From Nocardiopsis terrae (GTDB taxonomy: Bacteria; Actinomycetota; Actinomycetes; Streptosporangiales; Streptosporangiaceae): a stretch of 64,000 bases of DNA. Each line of letters begins with the position of its first letter. The first letter of the stretch is position 1. Location: positions 585,046 through 649,045 of the forward strand of contig NZ_BMXJ01000003.1 in NCBI RefSeq assembly GCF_014651695.1. Reading direction: 5' to 3'. A program made the translations under genes and the position numbers. Shown here piece after piece: positions 7,292 through 22,762 of the stretch. Under the pieces are notes generated by a model that saw only the letters and a list, made by a program, of their open reading frames with translations, was not told where the DNA came from and ran no database searches.

Positions 7292-7930
7292 ATGACGACG
7301 GACCATCTGCCGGAGACGTCCGCCGTGGCCGCCCATCGGGGCCGGCCACGGGACGCCAACCGGGACCGCGCGCTGATGGACGCCACCCTCACCGAACTCC
7401 AGCTGCACGGCTACAGCGGTCTGACCACCGCCGCCGTCGCCCGCCGGGCCGGGGTGTCCACGGCCACCCTGTACCGCCGCTGGCGTTCGAAGGAGGACCT
7501 GGTGGTCGGCGCCGCCCGGGCCTGGGCCGAGAACCTGGGCCCCGACCACGACAACGGCGACCTGGGCTCGGACCTGGGCGCACTGCTACGCGACAAGGCC
7601 ACCGCGTTGGAGGGCCCCTCCGGCCGCCTCCTGCGCGCCGTGCTCGGCGAGGCCGCGCACAACCGGGCCCTGGCCGACGTGCTCTTCGGCGCCTTCGTGA
7701 TCCCCCTGCAGGAACGGGTCTTCGCCCTGCTGGAACGGGCGGTGGAGCGCGGGGAGATCCCCCCGGTGGCCGACCCCCTGGTGGTCGCGGAGATGGTCAT
7801 CGGACCGATGGTCAGCCACACCTTCCTGGTCCCGCCGCAGGAGGGCGACGCCGGCACCACCCCCGGCACCGACATCGCCGAACGCCTCCTGCCCTACCTG
7901 CTCAGGGCCCTGGGCTCACGGGAACTCTGA
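7292..7930 (+). CDS. TetR/AcrR family transcriptional regulator
   Basis: 212 aa. The N-terminal helix-turn-helix is visible at about residues 35-70 ([28 protein letters not shown]). The C-terminal ligand domain, with [26 protein letters not shown] and [16 protein letters not shown], resembles the TetR_C_16-like group. It is divergent from the ALDH3 gene with a shared palindromic operator, so it probably represses that gene and itself until an aldehyde-related or lipophilic ligand binds. The 3' end abuts the broken ABC-transporter gene on the other strand, where the sequence has been joined by deletion. Confidence 0.88.
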
Positions 7931-16274: not shown

Positions 16275-18098
16275 TCAGCAGGAGGCGACCGGGCGCCACG
16301 GGCCCCACTCGTTCGACTCCGCGGGCGAACTCTCGGTGTTCCACCACACGGCCTCGTACTCCTCGCCCTCGTGCACGACGCGCGCCCCCTCCGGGTACAC
16401 CTCGCCCTCCGACCATCCGCCGGACGTGCAGGGGGCGGGCTCTTCCTCCTCGGACGGCGCCTCCTCGGGGTCGGTCTGTGTCGGCGGATCGGCGGCGGCC
16501 TGCCCCTCGTCGCTCCCGTCCTCGGCGCGTGGCTCCTCCTCCGACGCGGGCTCCTCGTCGTCCTCCTCGTCCTCGCCGGAGCCCGGGGAGACTCCGAGCA
16601 CGACGGTCGCCCCGTCCTCGACCACGGCCCCGGACCCGGGGGTGTGCCGTTCGACCTCGCCCTCGGGGCGTTCGGAGCCGGCGGCCTCCTCGACCCGGGA
16701 CTCCAGGCCCAGCTCGGCCAAGGCGTCCACGGCCTCCTGTTCGGTGCTGCCGACCAGGTCGGGTACGGTCACCCCCTCCACGACGGTGAGCACCACCGCG
16801 GAGTCGTAGGGCACGCTCTCCCCGTGTTCCGGATCACTCCCGGTGACGGTTCCGGCGGGCAGGCCCTCGGAGGGCTCCTGGACGAGCTCGACGTCGGTGA
16901 ACCCCTCCGCCACCAGGGCCAGGCGCGCCTCCTCCTCCAGGGAACCGACCACCTCGGGCATGGTGACGGTCAGGGGGCCCGCGGCCACGGACAGCAGTAC
17001 GTCCGCGCCCTCCGCCAGTTCGCTGCCGCTCTCGGGGGTGGAGGAGGCGACCAGCCCGGCCTCGACGTCGTCGCTGCGCACGTCCTGGTAGGAGACCTCC
17101 GGAGAGACCGGCAGCCGCGCCAGTTCCTCGGCGGCCTCGGAGGGGGAGAGCCCGACCAGGTCGGGCATGAACGCCTCGCCCGGGCCCGTGCCCCGGCCCG
17201 GTCCCTGTTGCGTCGCGGCCCACAGCGCCGCTCCCCCGGCCAGCACGACCACGAGTGCCAGGGCGGCCCACAGCACCGCGCGGCGGCGGGGCGGCGCGGC
17301 CTGGAACCGTTCCTCCTCAGCGGGTTCCTCCCGCGCCACGTGTTTGCCCGAGGCGGGGGGCAGGGAGTCGGCGGTGCGGCGCAGCAGGGCGCGGTACTCG
17401 AAGGCGTCGGCGGGGCGGCGCCGCGGGTCGGGGTCGGTCCCCCTGGCCACCAGGGCGCTGATCGCCCTTCCCACCGCGTCGTGTCCGGCGGGCGGATCGC
17501 CCTCGTCCCGGTGGCCTCCCGCGACCATGGCCTCCAACAGCCCGGCGACGGCGGCGACGTCGTCCTGCGGGCCGAGGACGGTCCCGTCCGCCGCGGGGGG
17601 CGGCGGGGACGCCAGGAGCAGGAGGCTGACACCGCCGTCGTCCGCCAGCGAGACGCTGTGCGGGCCGATGTGCCCGTGTACCAGGTCCCGCTCGTGCAGG
17701 TCCTGGAGCGCTCCCAGGAGGACGTCCGCGATGTCGAGCGCCTCCCGTCGGGAGACCCTTTCCTGGAAGCGCTCGCCGGTCAGGTCGCCCACCCAGGCGC
17801 CGTGGTGGGGTTCGGTGACCGTGTACGCCGCTCCCCCGCGCATCCCGCCGGACAGCACGGGGGTCAGGGTGGGGTGTTCGAGTTCCTCGAAGGCGCGCAG
17901 ACGCTCGCGGAAGGCCCTGGTCAGGGCCGCCCCGTCGGGGCCCGAGACGTCGAACAGCTCCACGCGGACCGGGCTCCGGGTCTCGGTGTCGTCCGCTTCG
18001 AGCAGGGTGGTGCGGGTGGAGATCCGACGCTCGCCGCGCACACGGAAACGTCGCCCGAGCGTCTCGTTTGCGGGGGAATCGGGGGGAAGGGTGGCCAT
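16275..18098 (-). CDS. Membrane pseudokinase with three PASTA repeats and a C-terminal chitin-binding-like module
   Basis: 607 aa. Residues about 15-245 resemble a Ser/Thr kinase domain (ITRT..LE, DIADVLLGALQDLHERDLVHG) but the catalytic elements are gone: no VAxK lysine, HGHIGPHSV (141-149) in place of HRDLKPxN, and no DFG. One membrane helix follows (about 274-296). Three extracellular PASTA repeats come next (about 309-374, 377-442, 443-506), then a very acidic linker (507-555). Last is a Cys-bounded module (557-607) with the aromatic pattern W..GEVYPEGARVVHEGEEYEAVWW, W..V..C, typical of CBM5/12 (ChtBD3) carbohydrate-binding domains. PASTA domains bind peptidoglycan or muropeptides, so this is probably a catalytically dead cell-wall sensor or scaffold. 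Architecture is clear; ligand is inferred. Confidence 0.85.
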   Translation of the reverse strand: MATLPPDSPANETLGRRFRVRGERRISTRTTLLEADDTETRSPVRVELFDVSGPDGAALTRAFRERLRAFEELEHPTLTPVLSGGMRGGAAYTVTEPHHGAWVGDLTGERFQERVSRREALDIADVLLGALQDLHERDLVHGHIGPHSVSLADDGGVSLLLLASPPPPAADGTVLGPQDDVAAVAGLLEAMVAGGHRDEGDPPAGHDAVGRAISALVARGTDPDPRRRPADAFEYRALLRRTADSLPPASGKHVAREEPAEEERFQAAPPRRRAVLWAALALVVVLAGGAALWAATQQGPGRGTGPGEAFMPDLVGLSPSEAAEELARLPVSPEVSYQDVRSDDVEAGLVASSTPESGSELAEGADVLLSVAAGPLTVTMPEVVGSLEEEARLALVAEGFTDVELVQEPSEGLPAGTVTGSDPEHGESVPYDSAVVLTVVEGVTVPDLVGSTEQEAVDALAELGLESRVEEAAGSERPEGEVERHTPGSGAVVEDGATVVLGVSPGSGEDEEDDEEPASEEEPRAEDGSDEGQAAADPPTQTDPEEAPSEEEEPAPCTSGGWSEGEVYPEGARVVHEGEEYEAVWWNTESSPAESNEWGPWRPVASC

Positions 18099-19085: not shown

Positions 19086-19862
19086 TCAGATTCCGGGCGG
19101 CCCGCACACCCCCTGGGGTGTGCGGTCACGTGTGCGTGCGGCGAATGCCCCCAGGGCGACCACTCCGAACACCGCCGTCCACCCCAGGCTGAGGAGCACC
19201 GACGTGAGCGGGACGGTATCGGTGAACGCCCCTGCCGTACAGACCTGCATCGCTCCGTACCCGGGTAGGAGGAGAACGGCGTCGGCGTCCGCGGTCGGGT
19301 TGATGATCGGGTTCTGCAGGGCGTTGTCGACCACCGTCGCCACGATGATCACGAACGTGCCCTCCAGCTCCTCCGGTAGGAACAGGGCCAGGAAGAGCCC
19401 GATGGCACCGTAGGCCGCCCCGCCCAGGAAGAGGCCCGCCCACAGCGCCAGTGGCTGCTCCGCGGCCCAGTGCAGGGAGGTCCAGGCGGTGGTGTAACCG
19501 CTGACCGTTGCCGAAGCCACCACCAGCATGGTGAGCTTGGCCAGGATGAGCGCCGTACGGGGGTAGCCCACCCGGGCCAGGCGCCGGTCGAAGTCGGCCG
19601 AGCGGTGCGCCGCGGTGAACATGGCGAACCCCACCAGCAAGGACACCAGATTGAGTACACAGCCCAGGGTCGTGACCTGGTGCCCCAGCGCCTGGATCCG
19701 CGTGTCCGTGGACCGGTGCACGAACTCGACGGGTTCCCCGGTCACCACCGAGTCGATCAACCAGATCAACAGGGGTACGAGGCAGACCAGCACCACCACC
19801 GCGAGACGGTTACGGGCCAGCTCCAGCAGCGAGTACCGGGTCGCCACCAGATAGGCGTTCAC
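19086..19862 (-). CDS. ABC-2-type transporter permease
   Basis: 258 aa with six hydrophobic segments (for example NRLAVVVLVCLVPLLIWLI, GCVLNLVSLLVGFAMF, YGAIGLFLALFLP, VLLSLGWTAVFGVVALGAFAA), as in ABC-2 half-size permeases. Its ATG (19862) overlaps the stop of the ATPase gene by 4 bases, so the two are translationally coupled and almost certainly form one transporter. The operon starts with a prenyl-synthase fusion, suggesting that an isoprenoid product or an isoprenoid-linked molecule is moved. Confidence 0.85.
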   Translation of the reverse strand: MNAYLVATRYSLLELARNRLAVVVLVCLVPLLIWLIDSVVTGEPVEFVHRSTDTRIQALGHQVTTLGCVLNLVSLLVGFAMFTAAHRSADFDRRLARVGYPRTALILAKLTMLVVASATVSGYTTAWTSLHWAAEQPLALWAGLFLGGAAYGAIGLFLALFLPEELEGTFVIIVATVVDNALQNPIINPTADADAVLLLPGYGAMQVCTAGAFTDTVPLTSVLLSLGWTAVFGVVALGAFAARTRDRTPQGVCGPPGI

Positions 19863-20470
19863 CGGCCGCTCCCGAGGTCGCTCTGCTCGAACGTGCCCGC
19901 ACGCAACTGGTACAGGGTGTCCAGACGGTCGACGTCGTGGGCCAGATGGGAGATGACCACGATGGCGCGTCCTTGGGCCTGCAGTTCCGCGGAAATCTCC
20001 CAGAACCGCAGGTAGGTCTCCCAGTCGAAGCCCTGGTAGGGCTCATCCAGCAAGAGGACGGCCGGGTCGTGCATGAGGGACAGGACCAGGTTCAGCTTCT
20101 GCCGTGTTCCGCCGCTCAGGTGCCGGACCCGGGTGGCACCGTACTGCTCGAACCCGAGTCGGTCGATGAGGGCGCGAGCCCGGTCCAGGCGGCGCAACCG
20201 GTAGGCGACGGCGAAGTAGCGCAGATGCTGGTCCACGGTCAGTTCCGGGTTGGTCACCGGATGCTGGGGACAGTAGCCGATCCGGCCCTCGACCTGCACC
20301 CGGCCGGAATCGGGCGCGAGTTCACCGGACAGGATCCGCAGCAGGGTGGTCTTGCCCGCTCCGTTCTCGCCGACGATCCCCACCAGCTCCCCGGGCGCGG
20401 CCCGCAGGCTCACCCCGCGCAGGACACGCCTCGGCCCGAAGGCCTTGTGCACGTCCGCCACACGCAGCAT
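19859..20470 (-). CDS. ABC transporter ATP-binding protein
   Basis: 203 aa from ATG 20470. Walker A GENGAGKTT, signature LSGGTRQKLNL, Walker B AVLLLDEPYQGFD and the H-loop VVISHLAHD are all present, so it should hydrolyse ATP. It is short for an ABC ATPase, as is usual for the CcmA/ABC-2 class. Its start overlaps the stop codon of the upstream prenyl-synthase fusion (TGATG), and its stop overlaps the start of the permease gene: a three-gene, fully coupled operon. Confidence 0.9.
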   Translation of the reverse strand: MLRVADVHKAFGPRRVLRGVSLRAAPGELVGIVGENGAGKTTLLRILSGELAPDSGRVQVEGRIGYCPQHPVTNPELTVDQHLRYFAVAYRLRRLDRARALIDRLGFEQYGATRVRHLSGGTRQKLNLVLSLMHDPAVLLLDEPYQGFDWETYLRFWEISAELQAQGRAIVVISHLAHDVDRLDTLYQLRAGTFEQSDLGSGR

Positions 20471-22164
20471 CAGACGCTCTCCTCGCTCAGGGTGCCGCCG
20501 AAGCTCCTGCGCCGTCCCGCGTAGGCGTTGACGGCGCGTACCAGGTGGGAGCGGTCGAAGTCGGGCCAGAGAGCGTCCTCGAAGAAGATCTCGGCGTAGG
20601 CGGTGTGCCAGGGCAGGAAGTTGCTGGTGCGCTGCTCGCCGGCGGTTCTGATCAGGAGGTCCACGTCGGGCAGCTCGGGATCGTAGAGGTACTCGGCGAG
20701 GTCGGACTCCGTCATGCGCGTCGGGTCCAGCCGCCCCGAGAGCGCCTCGGCCGCCGTGCGTTTGAGCGCGTCCACCATCTCCTGGCGGCCTCCGTAGTCC
20801 AGGCAGAACGTGAACGTGACCCCGCTGTTGCCCGACGTCAGCTCCTCGGCCCACTCCAGCCGTTCGCGGAGTACCGCCTCGACCCTGCTGCGGCGGCCGC
20901 ACCAGCGCATCCGAACGCCCCGGGCGTGCAGGCGCCCGGCCAGCCCCGGAACGCCCCGCGTCATCATCCTGAACATAGAGGACACCTCTTCGGGAGGACG
21001 CGACCAGTTTTCCGTGGAGAAGGCGAAGGTGGTCACGTACTTGATGCCCAACTCCCCGGCGGCGTCCACCAGACGGTACATCGCCTCCTCTCCCGCCGAG
21101 TGCCCTTCCACGGCGACCAGACCGAGCGCCCGGGCCCACCGCCGGTTACCGTCCATGATCACGGCCACGTGCTCGGGGACCGCGGCGGGAGGGCCCCCGG
21201 GGCCCGGGGTCGGGACGGGGAACCGCCGTTGCCGCAGCCCGGGCACGAGTGGCAGGACTCCGACAGGTGTCTCTCGGGTTTGCGACAACCGGGCGGGAAC
21301 GGCTGTTCGCGGTGGAGCGCCCGGCCGGTCCGCTGGAAGGTACGCGCACTCGTCCAGGCCCGTTCGCAGCCCGGCCACCATGGATGCGAGGAAGGGACGG
21401 CTGGAAGGGTGTACGGCATCGACCACCTCCTGCCCCTGGTGCAGCAGTCCGCGTGCCCGCTGCACCTGTAGTGCGATCAGTTCCCGATAGGCGTTCGTGC
21501 CGCGCGCACCGATCAGGCCGTCCGCGTCCAGGCCGAACCGCTCCAGGTCCTGGCGGGGCAGGTAGCAGCGGCCCTGTTCGAGGTCTTCGGGCAGGTCGTG
21601 GAGGATGTCGATGTACTGGAGGGCTTCGCCCAACAGCGACATGAGTTCCGGGGCGTCCTCCCGGACCGGCTCCAGCACGGTGCCGAGCAACTCCCCGACG
21701 GTGCCGCTCGTACCGCGCATGTAGCCGCGTAGGTCGGCGAAACCGGGAAAGTCGGGCGGCCGACGACTGTCCTGCTCGAGTGTGGTGAGAAGCTCCTCCA
21801 GCACCGGTACGGGCATGTCCCACGCCCGCACCGTGTGGACCATGGCGCGCTGGACCGGCAGCAGGCGGACGGGTGCACCGGGTTCGTCGGCCAGCGCGGC
21901 CAGGGTGTCGGTGCGGAACCGGGCCAGGGCCGGCCCGCGCTCGGAGACCTCCCCTTCGTCGGCCAACCGATCGGCCCATAGCGCGAAGGCGACCAGTGCG
22001 TGCGCGTAGGGGCGCTTGTGGGCGGGCAGCAAATCGACGATCTGCGGAGAGAGGTGGTCCGCACCCGTGTGGATCCTGCGACAGACCTCGAAGGCGCGCG
22101 CCAGACCAGTGTCGGCACCCCGCTCCGCGACCAGCAGGGAATCCGTCCTCATGTGCCCGCTCAT
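20470..22164 (-). CDS. Fusion of squalene/phytoene-synthase-like and cis-prenyltransferase (UppS-like) domains
   Basis: 564 aa from ATG 22164 (AGGA seven bases upstream; in-frame ATG 22152 is an alternative). Residues about 20-280 form a trans-isoprenyl head-to-head synthase domain with both acidic motifs: ADRLADE (D65, D69) and DILHDLPEDLEQGRCYLP (186-203). A Pro/Arg-rich linker (about 280-330) leads to a complete cis-prenyltransferase domain: VAVIMDGNRRWARALGL (334-350), GHSAGEEAMYRLV, FAFSTENWSRP, and IRTAGEQRTSNFLPWH (505-520). Cis-prenyltransferases elongate allylic diphosphates; squalene/phytoene synthases join two prenyl diphosphates. The single polypeptide could make a Z-chain product and condense it. 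It is first in an operon with an ABC transporter. Domain calls are firm, the product is not known. Confidence 0.9.
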   Translation of the reverse strand: MSGHMRTDSLLVAERGADTGLARAFEVCRRIHTGADHLSPQIVDLLPAHKRPYAHALVAFALWADRLADEGEVSERGPALARFRTDTLAALADEPGAPVRLLPVQRAMVHTVRAWDMPVPVLEELLTTLEQDSRRPPDFPGFADLRGYMRGTSGTVGELLGTVLEPVREDAPELMSLLGEALQYIDILHDLPEDLEQGRCYLPRQDLERFGLDADGLIGARGTNAYRELIALQVQRARGLLHQGQEVVDAVHPSSRPFLASMVAGLRTGLDECAYLPADRPGAPPRTAVPARLSQTRETPVGVLPLVPGLRQRRFPVPTPGPGGPPAAVPEHVAVIMDGNRRWARALGLVAVEGHSAGEEAMYRLVDAAGELGIKYVTTFAFSTENWSRPPEEVSSMFRMMTRGVPGLAGRLHARGVRMRWCGRRSRVEAVLRERLEWAEELTSGNSGVTFTFCLDYGGRQEMVDALKRTAAEALSGRLDPTRMTESDLAEYLYDPELPDVDLLIRTAGEQRTSNFLPWHTAYAEIFFEDALWPDFDRSHLVRAVNAYAGRRRSFGGTLSEESV

Positions 22165-22762
22165 CGCTGGTCCTGCACGGTGGCCGCGGGAGTGCGCCCT
22201 CGCACCCGTGAACCGTTTCCCGTGGGGGGACACGCCTGTGCCCACACCTTGACCAGAACTGAGGGGATCTGAATAATCACGCTGGGTAGCTTAATGGTTT
22301 CCGGGCCTGCTTTGAACTGCGGACGGTGGCCCGCAGGGCCGCTCGCCCACCGCTGCTCCGGCCGCGAACACGCTCGGGACGGCTATCGATGACCACCGAC
22401 CCGGGCTGGGAACGACGCCCCCTCCGGTCACGGGGTTCAGGGCGGATTCAACCAGCCCTGGACCTTCACCCGCTGGGCCGAGGAGTCCGGAATGGCACCC
22501 TCTACGGGGTCGCCCGGAAGGTGTTCGACTGAGCCTGTACAACGCATGCTCAGTTTGAGGAACGGTTCGGCGAAACCACCTCGTCCGAGGAACTCCGCCG
22601 GCATCCGACGCCCGGCCTCTTCGGTTTCCCACTCGCGTGGACGGGGGTCAGCAGGCCTCAGCGCGCTCCGGTGCGGGAGTGTCGAGGTCCGCGGGCGTTG
22701 GGATGCTCTTGATCCGCTCACGCGCCTGGTCGGCGAAAAGCCGGACTTTGGGTGACAGCCCA
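22165..22762. other. Gap: promoter side of the prenyl-synthase operon plus unassigned sequence
   Basis: No gene that I can support. Bases 22245-22300 are AT-richer and should hold the promoter of the minus-strand operon. A minus-strand open stretch at about 22648-22760 (DQARERIKSIPTPADLDTP) looks coding-like but has no start of its own: reading upstream it runs into repeat R2. Confidence 0.4.

Follow-up and report, generated by a model that had tools for sequence, protein, structure and literature searches.

A squalene synthase-like/cis-prenyltransferase fusion gene adjoining an ABC transporter gene pair in Nocardiopsis terrae

A two-domain prenyl enzyme and its neighbors

Within a 64,000-nucleotide stretch of the Nocardiopsis terrae genome (contig NZ_BMXJ01000003.1, positions 585,046 to 649,045; hereafter the window, numbered from its first letter), one minus-strand gene encodes a protein that joins a squalene synthase (SQS)-like domain to a cis-prenyltransferase (cis-PT) domain, and it is followed by genes for the ATPase and permease of an ATP-binding cassette (ABC) transporter (Table 1). 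The stop codon of the fusion gene shares a single base, at 20470, with the start codon of the ATPase gene, and the ATPase and permease genes overlap by four bases, GTGA, between the ATPase stop (19861-19859) and the permease start at 19862, exactly the 1- and 4-base overlaps that a first-pass annotation of this DNA had reported. That annotation knew of no described system with this architecture, and we likewise found no description of the fusion with its ABC pair in the open full-text literature. Our preferred reading, which we place just short of an even chance, is that the operon makes a prenyl product through cis-elongation, followed by an SQS-like transfer or condensation and then by export.

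Table 1. Features of the fusion gene and the ABC pair in the window
Feature	Position	Strand	Details
SQS-like/cis-PT fusion gene	20470..22164	minus	564 aa; ATG 22164, TGA 20472-20470
Squalene/phytoene-synthase-like domain, residues 42-279	21328..22041	minus	Pfam SQS_PSY (PF00494), E 4.3e-44
First Asp-rich motif DRLAD (D65, D69)	21958..21972	minus	D65 117/120, D69 116/120 listed homologues
Second Asp-rich motif DILHDLPED (D186, D190, D194)	21583..21609	minus	D186 117/120, D190 116/120, D194 120/120
Interdomain linker, residues 283-323	21196..21318	minus	predicted disordered; predicted local distance difference test (pLDDT) <50
Cis-PT (UPPS-type) domain, residues 336-556	20497..21159	minus	Pfam Prenyltransf (PF01255), E 1.8e-71
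ABC transporter ATPase, 203 aa	19859..20470	minus	PF00005, E 1.4e-29; ATG at 20470
ABC-2/type V permease, 258 aa	19086..19862	minus	homologue names and modelled fold

The two Pfam domains lie in one open reading frame (ORF), as originally annotated, and an alternative in-frame start (GTG at 22245) would add 27 residues and leave both domains unaffected. Domains and active sites were examined in the 120 fusion homologues listed out of 420. All 120 carry both domains by Pfam flags and by purpose-built domain models, so a frame or sequencing error between the two domains, the artefact that the annotation had considered, is not the case here. Its description of the second domain as a complete Z-prenyltransferase also stands, since the full catalytic residue set is kept in at least 119 of the listed homologues (D338, R512, S514 and E525 in all 120; N340 in 119). 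At the sequence level, a single polypeptide thus carries two conserved predicted active sites that have been inherited as a unit. One locus, in Streptomyces fulvorobeus (L011:9965-11595), has the fusion broken into two overlapping frames and is either decayed or mis-sequenced.

The domain trees agree with joint inheritance. The fusion SQS domains form one clade in a first SQS tree (support 100/100; 27 of the 120 listed fusions) and in an extended tree (100/98; P0122, P0139 and P0141-P0143 omitted), and the fusion cis-PT domains form one clade (99/98; 23 of the 120) apart from housekeeping-type UppS; because each half is a single clade, the two domains appear to have travelled together. At a threshold of E<=1e-85, the fusion is present in at least 7 of 40 genomes of the same genus and at least 6 of 394 of the class, the N. 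terrae genome included in both, as well as in at least 3 of 295 Streptomyces genomes and at least 3 of 397 genomes of another order, these three all within one family. The counts are lower bounds that miss divergent fusions; G166, which holds the fusion locus L173, was scored absent. N. terrae also has two further UppS-type genes, one further SQS_PSY gene and three trans-prenyl synthases. The fusion is accessory, given the additional UppS-type and SQS_PSY genes, and patchy in distribution. A second, divergent SQS-cis-PT fusion lineage was observed at L173:8068-11346 and L087:11644-13257, and a Streptomyces linear plasmid (L086:11749-15784) carries adjoining cis-PT and SQS-like genes that are not fused, with an MMPL-type gene after them.

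Predicted chemistry of the two halves

The cis-PT half most resembles actinobacterial UppS enzymes such as the dodecaprenyl diphosphate synthase of Thermobifida fusca (7cpn), with which it shares 46-50% identity and a complete active site, and from which it differs in being fused, in forming its own clade and in not being the housekeeping copy. Two residues past the catalytic Asp lies N340, the equivalent of UPPS Asn-28, a position that is Asn in UPPS and His in lavandulyl synthase (PMC7839719). The retention of this Asn makes regular cis-elongation by the fusion likely, in keeping with that part of the originally predicted chemistry, and it argues against an irregular, head-to-middle cis-PT of the lavandulyl type, which we considered and set aside. 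A cis-PT-fold enzyme that supplies an SQS-like prenyltransferase has a parallel in lavanduquinocin biosynthesis, in which a cis-PT-fold cyclolavandulyl synthase is paired with LvqB4. That pair differs in consisting of separate proteins and in using an irregular synthase, whereas N340 points to regular elongation by the fusion.

The SQS-like half raises the question of which reaction follows. It has the fold and both Asp-rich motifs of the HpnC/HpnD, CrtM and CrtB-type synthases (PF00494), but the second-motif Asn...Arg pair is replaced, the domain forms a separate clade, and it is joined to a cis-PT. Among the listed fusions, Asp (D186 in the N. terrae protein) occupies the Asn position in 117 of 120, and the Arg position, three residues later (H189 in the N. 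terrae protein), is Glu in 71, Gln in 21 and Arg in 11. The same two positions are Asn and Arg in 26 of 26 HpnD, near-HpnD and phytoene synthase (PSY) rows, and Glu (19 of 20) and Gln (20 of 20) in HpnC rows, all of these reference rows having been assigned to their classes from model matches or tree placement rather than from measured activity; CrtM alignments also show the Asn...Arg pair, and CqsB4 and LvqB4 have Asp and Trp. In both SQS trees the fusion domain falls outside the HpnC, HpnD and PSY clades. The extended tree places the fusions, the second lineage (L173 and L087), the SQS of locus L176 and CqsB4/LvqB4 on one side with moderate support (93/96); the corresponding grouping with CqsB4/LvqB4 in the first tree, which includes L086 and lacks L173, L087 and L176, is weak (58/78). 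The L086 row itself changes sides, grouping with the fusions in the first tree (58/78) and with HpnC in the extended tree (83/63).

Because the Asn...Arg pair is replaced, Asp is shared with CqsB4/LvqB4, and the trees place the domain, with weak to moderate support, on the side of these enzymes, we lean toward prenyl transfer over head-to-head coupling. Prenyltransferases of the phytoene synthase-like (PSL) type share the SQS-like fold with the fusion. NzsG and CqsB4 prenylate carbazoles (PMC7466098), whereas DmtC1 (PMC6173783) and NozPT, the latter from a Nocardiopsis (PMC10156859), prenylate diketopiperazines; NzsG, DmtC1 and NozPT are likened to the fusion by this described function only. 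In the accessible portions of these papers, none of NzsG, CqsB4, LvqB4, DmtC1 or NozPT is described as fused to a cis-PT, unlike the window protein, and NzsG and DmtC1 lie in clusters that make their acceptors, unlike the fusion locus as scanned.

Several observations weigh against assigning prenyl transfer. The grouping with CqsB4/LvqB4, moderate at best, was obtained with partial PDB sequences on long branches, for which treekit issued a warning; the Arg position of the fusions differs from the Trp of CqsB4/LvqB4 as well; and fold comparison does not tell CrtM from LvqB4. Structure alignments of the fusions covered 94 of the 120 listed. In addition, no acceptor-pathway families were recognized among the window neighbors scanned with Pfam. 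The missing acceptor genes are nevertheless compatible with prenyl transfer, since NozPT acts away from its acceptor locus, the acceptor enzyme being encoded at a separate locus (PMC10156859).

The absence of recognized acceptor genes nearby would also make an isoprenoid acceptor from primary metabolism economical. Such an acceptor belongs to the chemistry favored by the first-pass annotation, in which the SQS-like domain couples two allylic diphosphates head-to-head, one or both of them supplied by the cis-PT, and the resulting linear or asymmetric polyisoprenoid, containing Z units, is exported or inserted into the membrane by the ABC pair. The SQS_PSY domain with both Asp-rich motifs, the retention of Q183 in 109 of the 120 listed fusions and a GTVGE stretch as in CrtM all fit such coupling. 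So do the best NCBIfam matches, HpnD (107.3 of 278.6 bits) and HpnC (103.8 of 250.45 bits), although both fall far below cut-off, as do the CrtB models (55.0 of 500, 50.4 of 550 and 26.5 of 480 bits). The replacement of the Asn...Arg pair and the position of the domain outside the HpnC, HpnD and PSY clades run counter to this chemistry, which we regard as possible but doubtful. In view of the missing pair and the tree placement, the first-pass annotation worded its assignment of head-to-head motifs too strongly.

Another explanation is that the SQS-like domain performs no transfer at all, and instead isomerizes, cyclizes or hydrolyzes the cis-prenyl diphosphate, or docks or regulates the cis-PT. 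HpnC-type relatives, which act on a preformed diphosphate, provide a precedent, and the Glu and Gln of the HpnC rows, together with the freedom of the Arg position to vary in the fusions, are consistent with it. However, none of the four canonical SQS Asp residues is retained in fewer than 116 of the 120 listed homologues. The ratio of nonsynonymous to synonymous substitution rates (dN/dS) against the close relatives L139-L143 was 0.26-0.36 for the SQS domain, 0.34-0.59 for the cis-PT domain and approximately 0.6-1.6 for the remainder of the protein; against the distant L144 and L145 the values were 0.41-0.48, 0.35-0.36 and 0.8-0.9. By these estimates both halves are under purifying selection, even where the ABC genes are broken, with the remainder nearer neutral. 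The SQS domain is the more strongly constrained of the two in five of the seven relatives compared, and in the two distant relatives it is somewhat less constrained than the cis-PT domain. We consider a role without transfer improbable.

The transporter pair and its association with prenyl synthases

The ATPase contains GENGAGKTT, which we take to be the Walker A motif, as well as LSGG and LLLDEP, which we likewise presume to be ABC motifs. The permease matched no Pfam family above cut-off and was identified through homologues named as ABC-2 permeases and through its modelled fold, which is that of a type V (ABCG-like) exporter and comes with a cognate ATPase; structure alignments covered the window permease and 56 of 68 permease homologues. 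By this modelled fold, the pair is a type V-like exporter. Identity to the type V exporters ABCG1, ABCG25, NosFY and KpsMT is low, mostly 9-17%, and ABCG proteins differ from the window pair, which has a half-size permease and a separate ATPase.

DNA context was available for 24 fusion loci (the window, L139-L145, L003-L007, L011, L146-L148, L192, L193, L173, L087 and L197-L199; L141 and L142 are identical to L001 and L002 and enter the count once). The expectation that the ABC genes always follow the fusion does not hold, and the counts weigh against the proposed link: only 4 of the 24 loci (the window, L139, L145 and L173) retain both ABC genes intact, 4 (L140-L143) have remnants beside a fusion frame that is still open, and 16 show no trace of the pair. 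The ABC pair therefore need not adjoin the fusion. At the other loci with permease homologues, the fetched stretch lacks a prenyl synthase in 11 of 26, and in 2 of 26 one occurs only at 2.1 and 5.4 kb. Homologues without the transporter, which had been named together with loss of one active domain as a finding that would undermine the prediction, do exist, and both active sites are kept. We excluded two distant ATPase-like matches from the partner count, one at L004 (25.6%, approximately 8 kb away) and one at L147 (31% over 58 residues).

These counts, and the close relatives in which a broken ABC pair accompanies an intact fusion, are what would be seen if the transporter were functionally unlinked to the fusion, as a chance neighbor or a self-resistance pump, a question separate from that of the SQS-like reaction. 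Against this stand the overlapping genes and locus L145, where the intact pair (ATPase 71% and permease 57% identical) accompanies a fusion of only 51% identity, suggesting that the association is old. Furthermore, the ATPase adjoins the permease in all 26 of the other permease-homologue loci, and in 13 of them a prenyl synthase is encoded on the same strand no more than 250 bp away. These include an ATPase-permease-fusion arrangement at L173, from the separate fusion lineage and with the ABC genes preceding the fusion, opposite to the window order, and an ATPase-permease-SQS-trans-prenyltransferase (trans-PT) arrangement at L176. The trans-PT model used in this count was built from six proteins (L162, L163, L166, L172, L174 and L176) that are themselves counted, and Pfam confirmed three of the six. 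Permease homologues also occur on contigs matching in size those of the fusion homologues P0007, P0008, P0012 and P0021. An unlinked transporter thus seems unlikely to us. The proposal that the pair exports or inserts an isoprenoid draws support from the type V model and the linkage in 13 of 26 loci and loses some from the few fusion loci with an intact pair. Across these loci, the partners of this ABC family comprise trans-prenyl synthases, standalone SQS-like enzymes and a second fusion that may be independent.

The remnant at L141 comprises ATPase residues 1-182 and the last 16 residues of the permease, and those at L140, L142 and L143 approximately 25 ATPase codons only. In two of the four remnant genomes (G395 and G502), a paralogous ABC pair lies next to a trans-prenyl synthase at another site and might stand in for the broken one. 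Of the 16 ABC-less loci, 11 (L003-L007, L146-L148, L192, L193 and L198) have a convergent gene for a predicted secreted protein of approximately 215 aa (for example, L198:8156-8884 and L003:11654-12412, the latter product without a Pfam or NCBIfam match), and L011 has a short remnant of it. An MMPL-type gene lies near the fusion in two others, at 110 bp in L197 and beyond one small ORF in L199, Pfam making this call in L199 only and similarity to L199 making it in L197 and L086. No ABC, secreted-protein or MMPL gene was present in the fetched stretches of L144 and L087.

A candidate route to an exported prenyl product

Beyond the architecture, conservation and linkage seen in the sequences, we infer the order of reactions, the acceptor and export as follows. 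The three genes may constitute a small operon whose product, a prenyl lipid or a prenylated metabolite, leaves the cytoplasm. The cis-PT domain would add Z-isoprene units to an allylic primer. The SQS-like domain, binding Mg2+ through D65/D69 and D186/D190/D194, would ionize the resulting prenyl diphosphate or a different one and then join the prenyl chain to an acceptor. Because the Asn...Arg pair is missing and Asp is common to the fusion and CqsB4/LvqB4, this acceptor would more likely be something else than a second prenyl diphosphate used in the manner of HpnD or CrtB. We speculate that being fused retains the Z-prenyl donor at the second site, apart from the pool of the two separate UppS-type enzymes, and that the ABC pair carries the product into the membrane or across it; other lineages may use an MMPL transporter or a secreted protein in a related role.

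More tentatively still, actinomycetes may have in common a modular class of exported isoprenoids that has not been described: a single polypeptide would produce a Z-prenyl diphosphate and immediately transfer or condense it, and a type V ABC exporter or an MMPL exporter, dedicated to the product, would carry it to the envelope. To our knowledge, isoprenoid transport in bacteria is poorly understood, and, if this proposal is correct, the ABC family would be a marker for finding exported prenyl lipids, and the fusion would couple cis-prenyl elongation to an SQS-like reaction within one protein. The two-residue signature in the second motif (Asn...Arg versus Asp) may separate uses of the squalene synthase fold and is directly testable.

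Some further features were observed around these loci. Trans-prenyl synthases with a long N-terminal part lie beside the same ABC family at L162:5435-7813 and L163:5198-7399, and in L162 this part has a weak Lipocalin_9 match (23.1 bits against a cut-off of 26.2). Directly after the 25-codon ATPase remnant at L140 (L140:9434-9605) are two CRISPR-like repeats 61 bp apart, presumably of type I-E, together with a leader-like 81-nt sequence that recurs at 7515-7595 of the same locus; a tandem-repeat finder reported nothing in this segment. At L197:7478-8899, the fusion is directly followed by transposase-like ORFs that we take to be of the IS3 type. In the window, next to the operon, positions 16275-18098 encode a 607-aa protein with three PASTA repeats and weak kinase-type matches.

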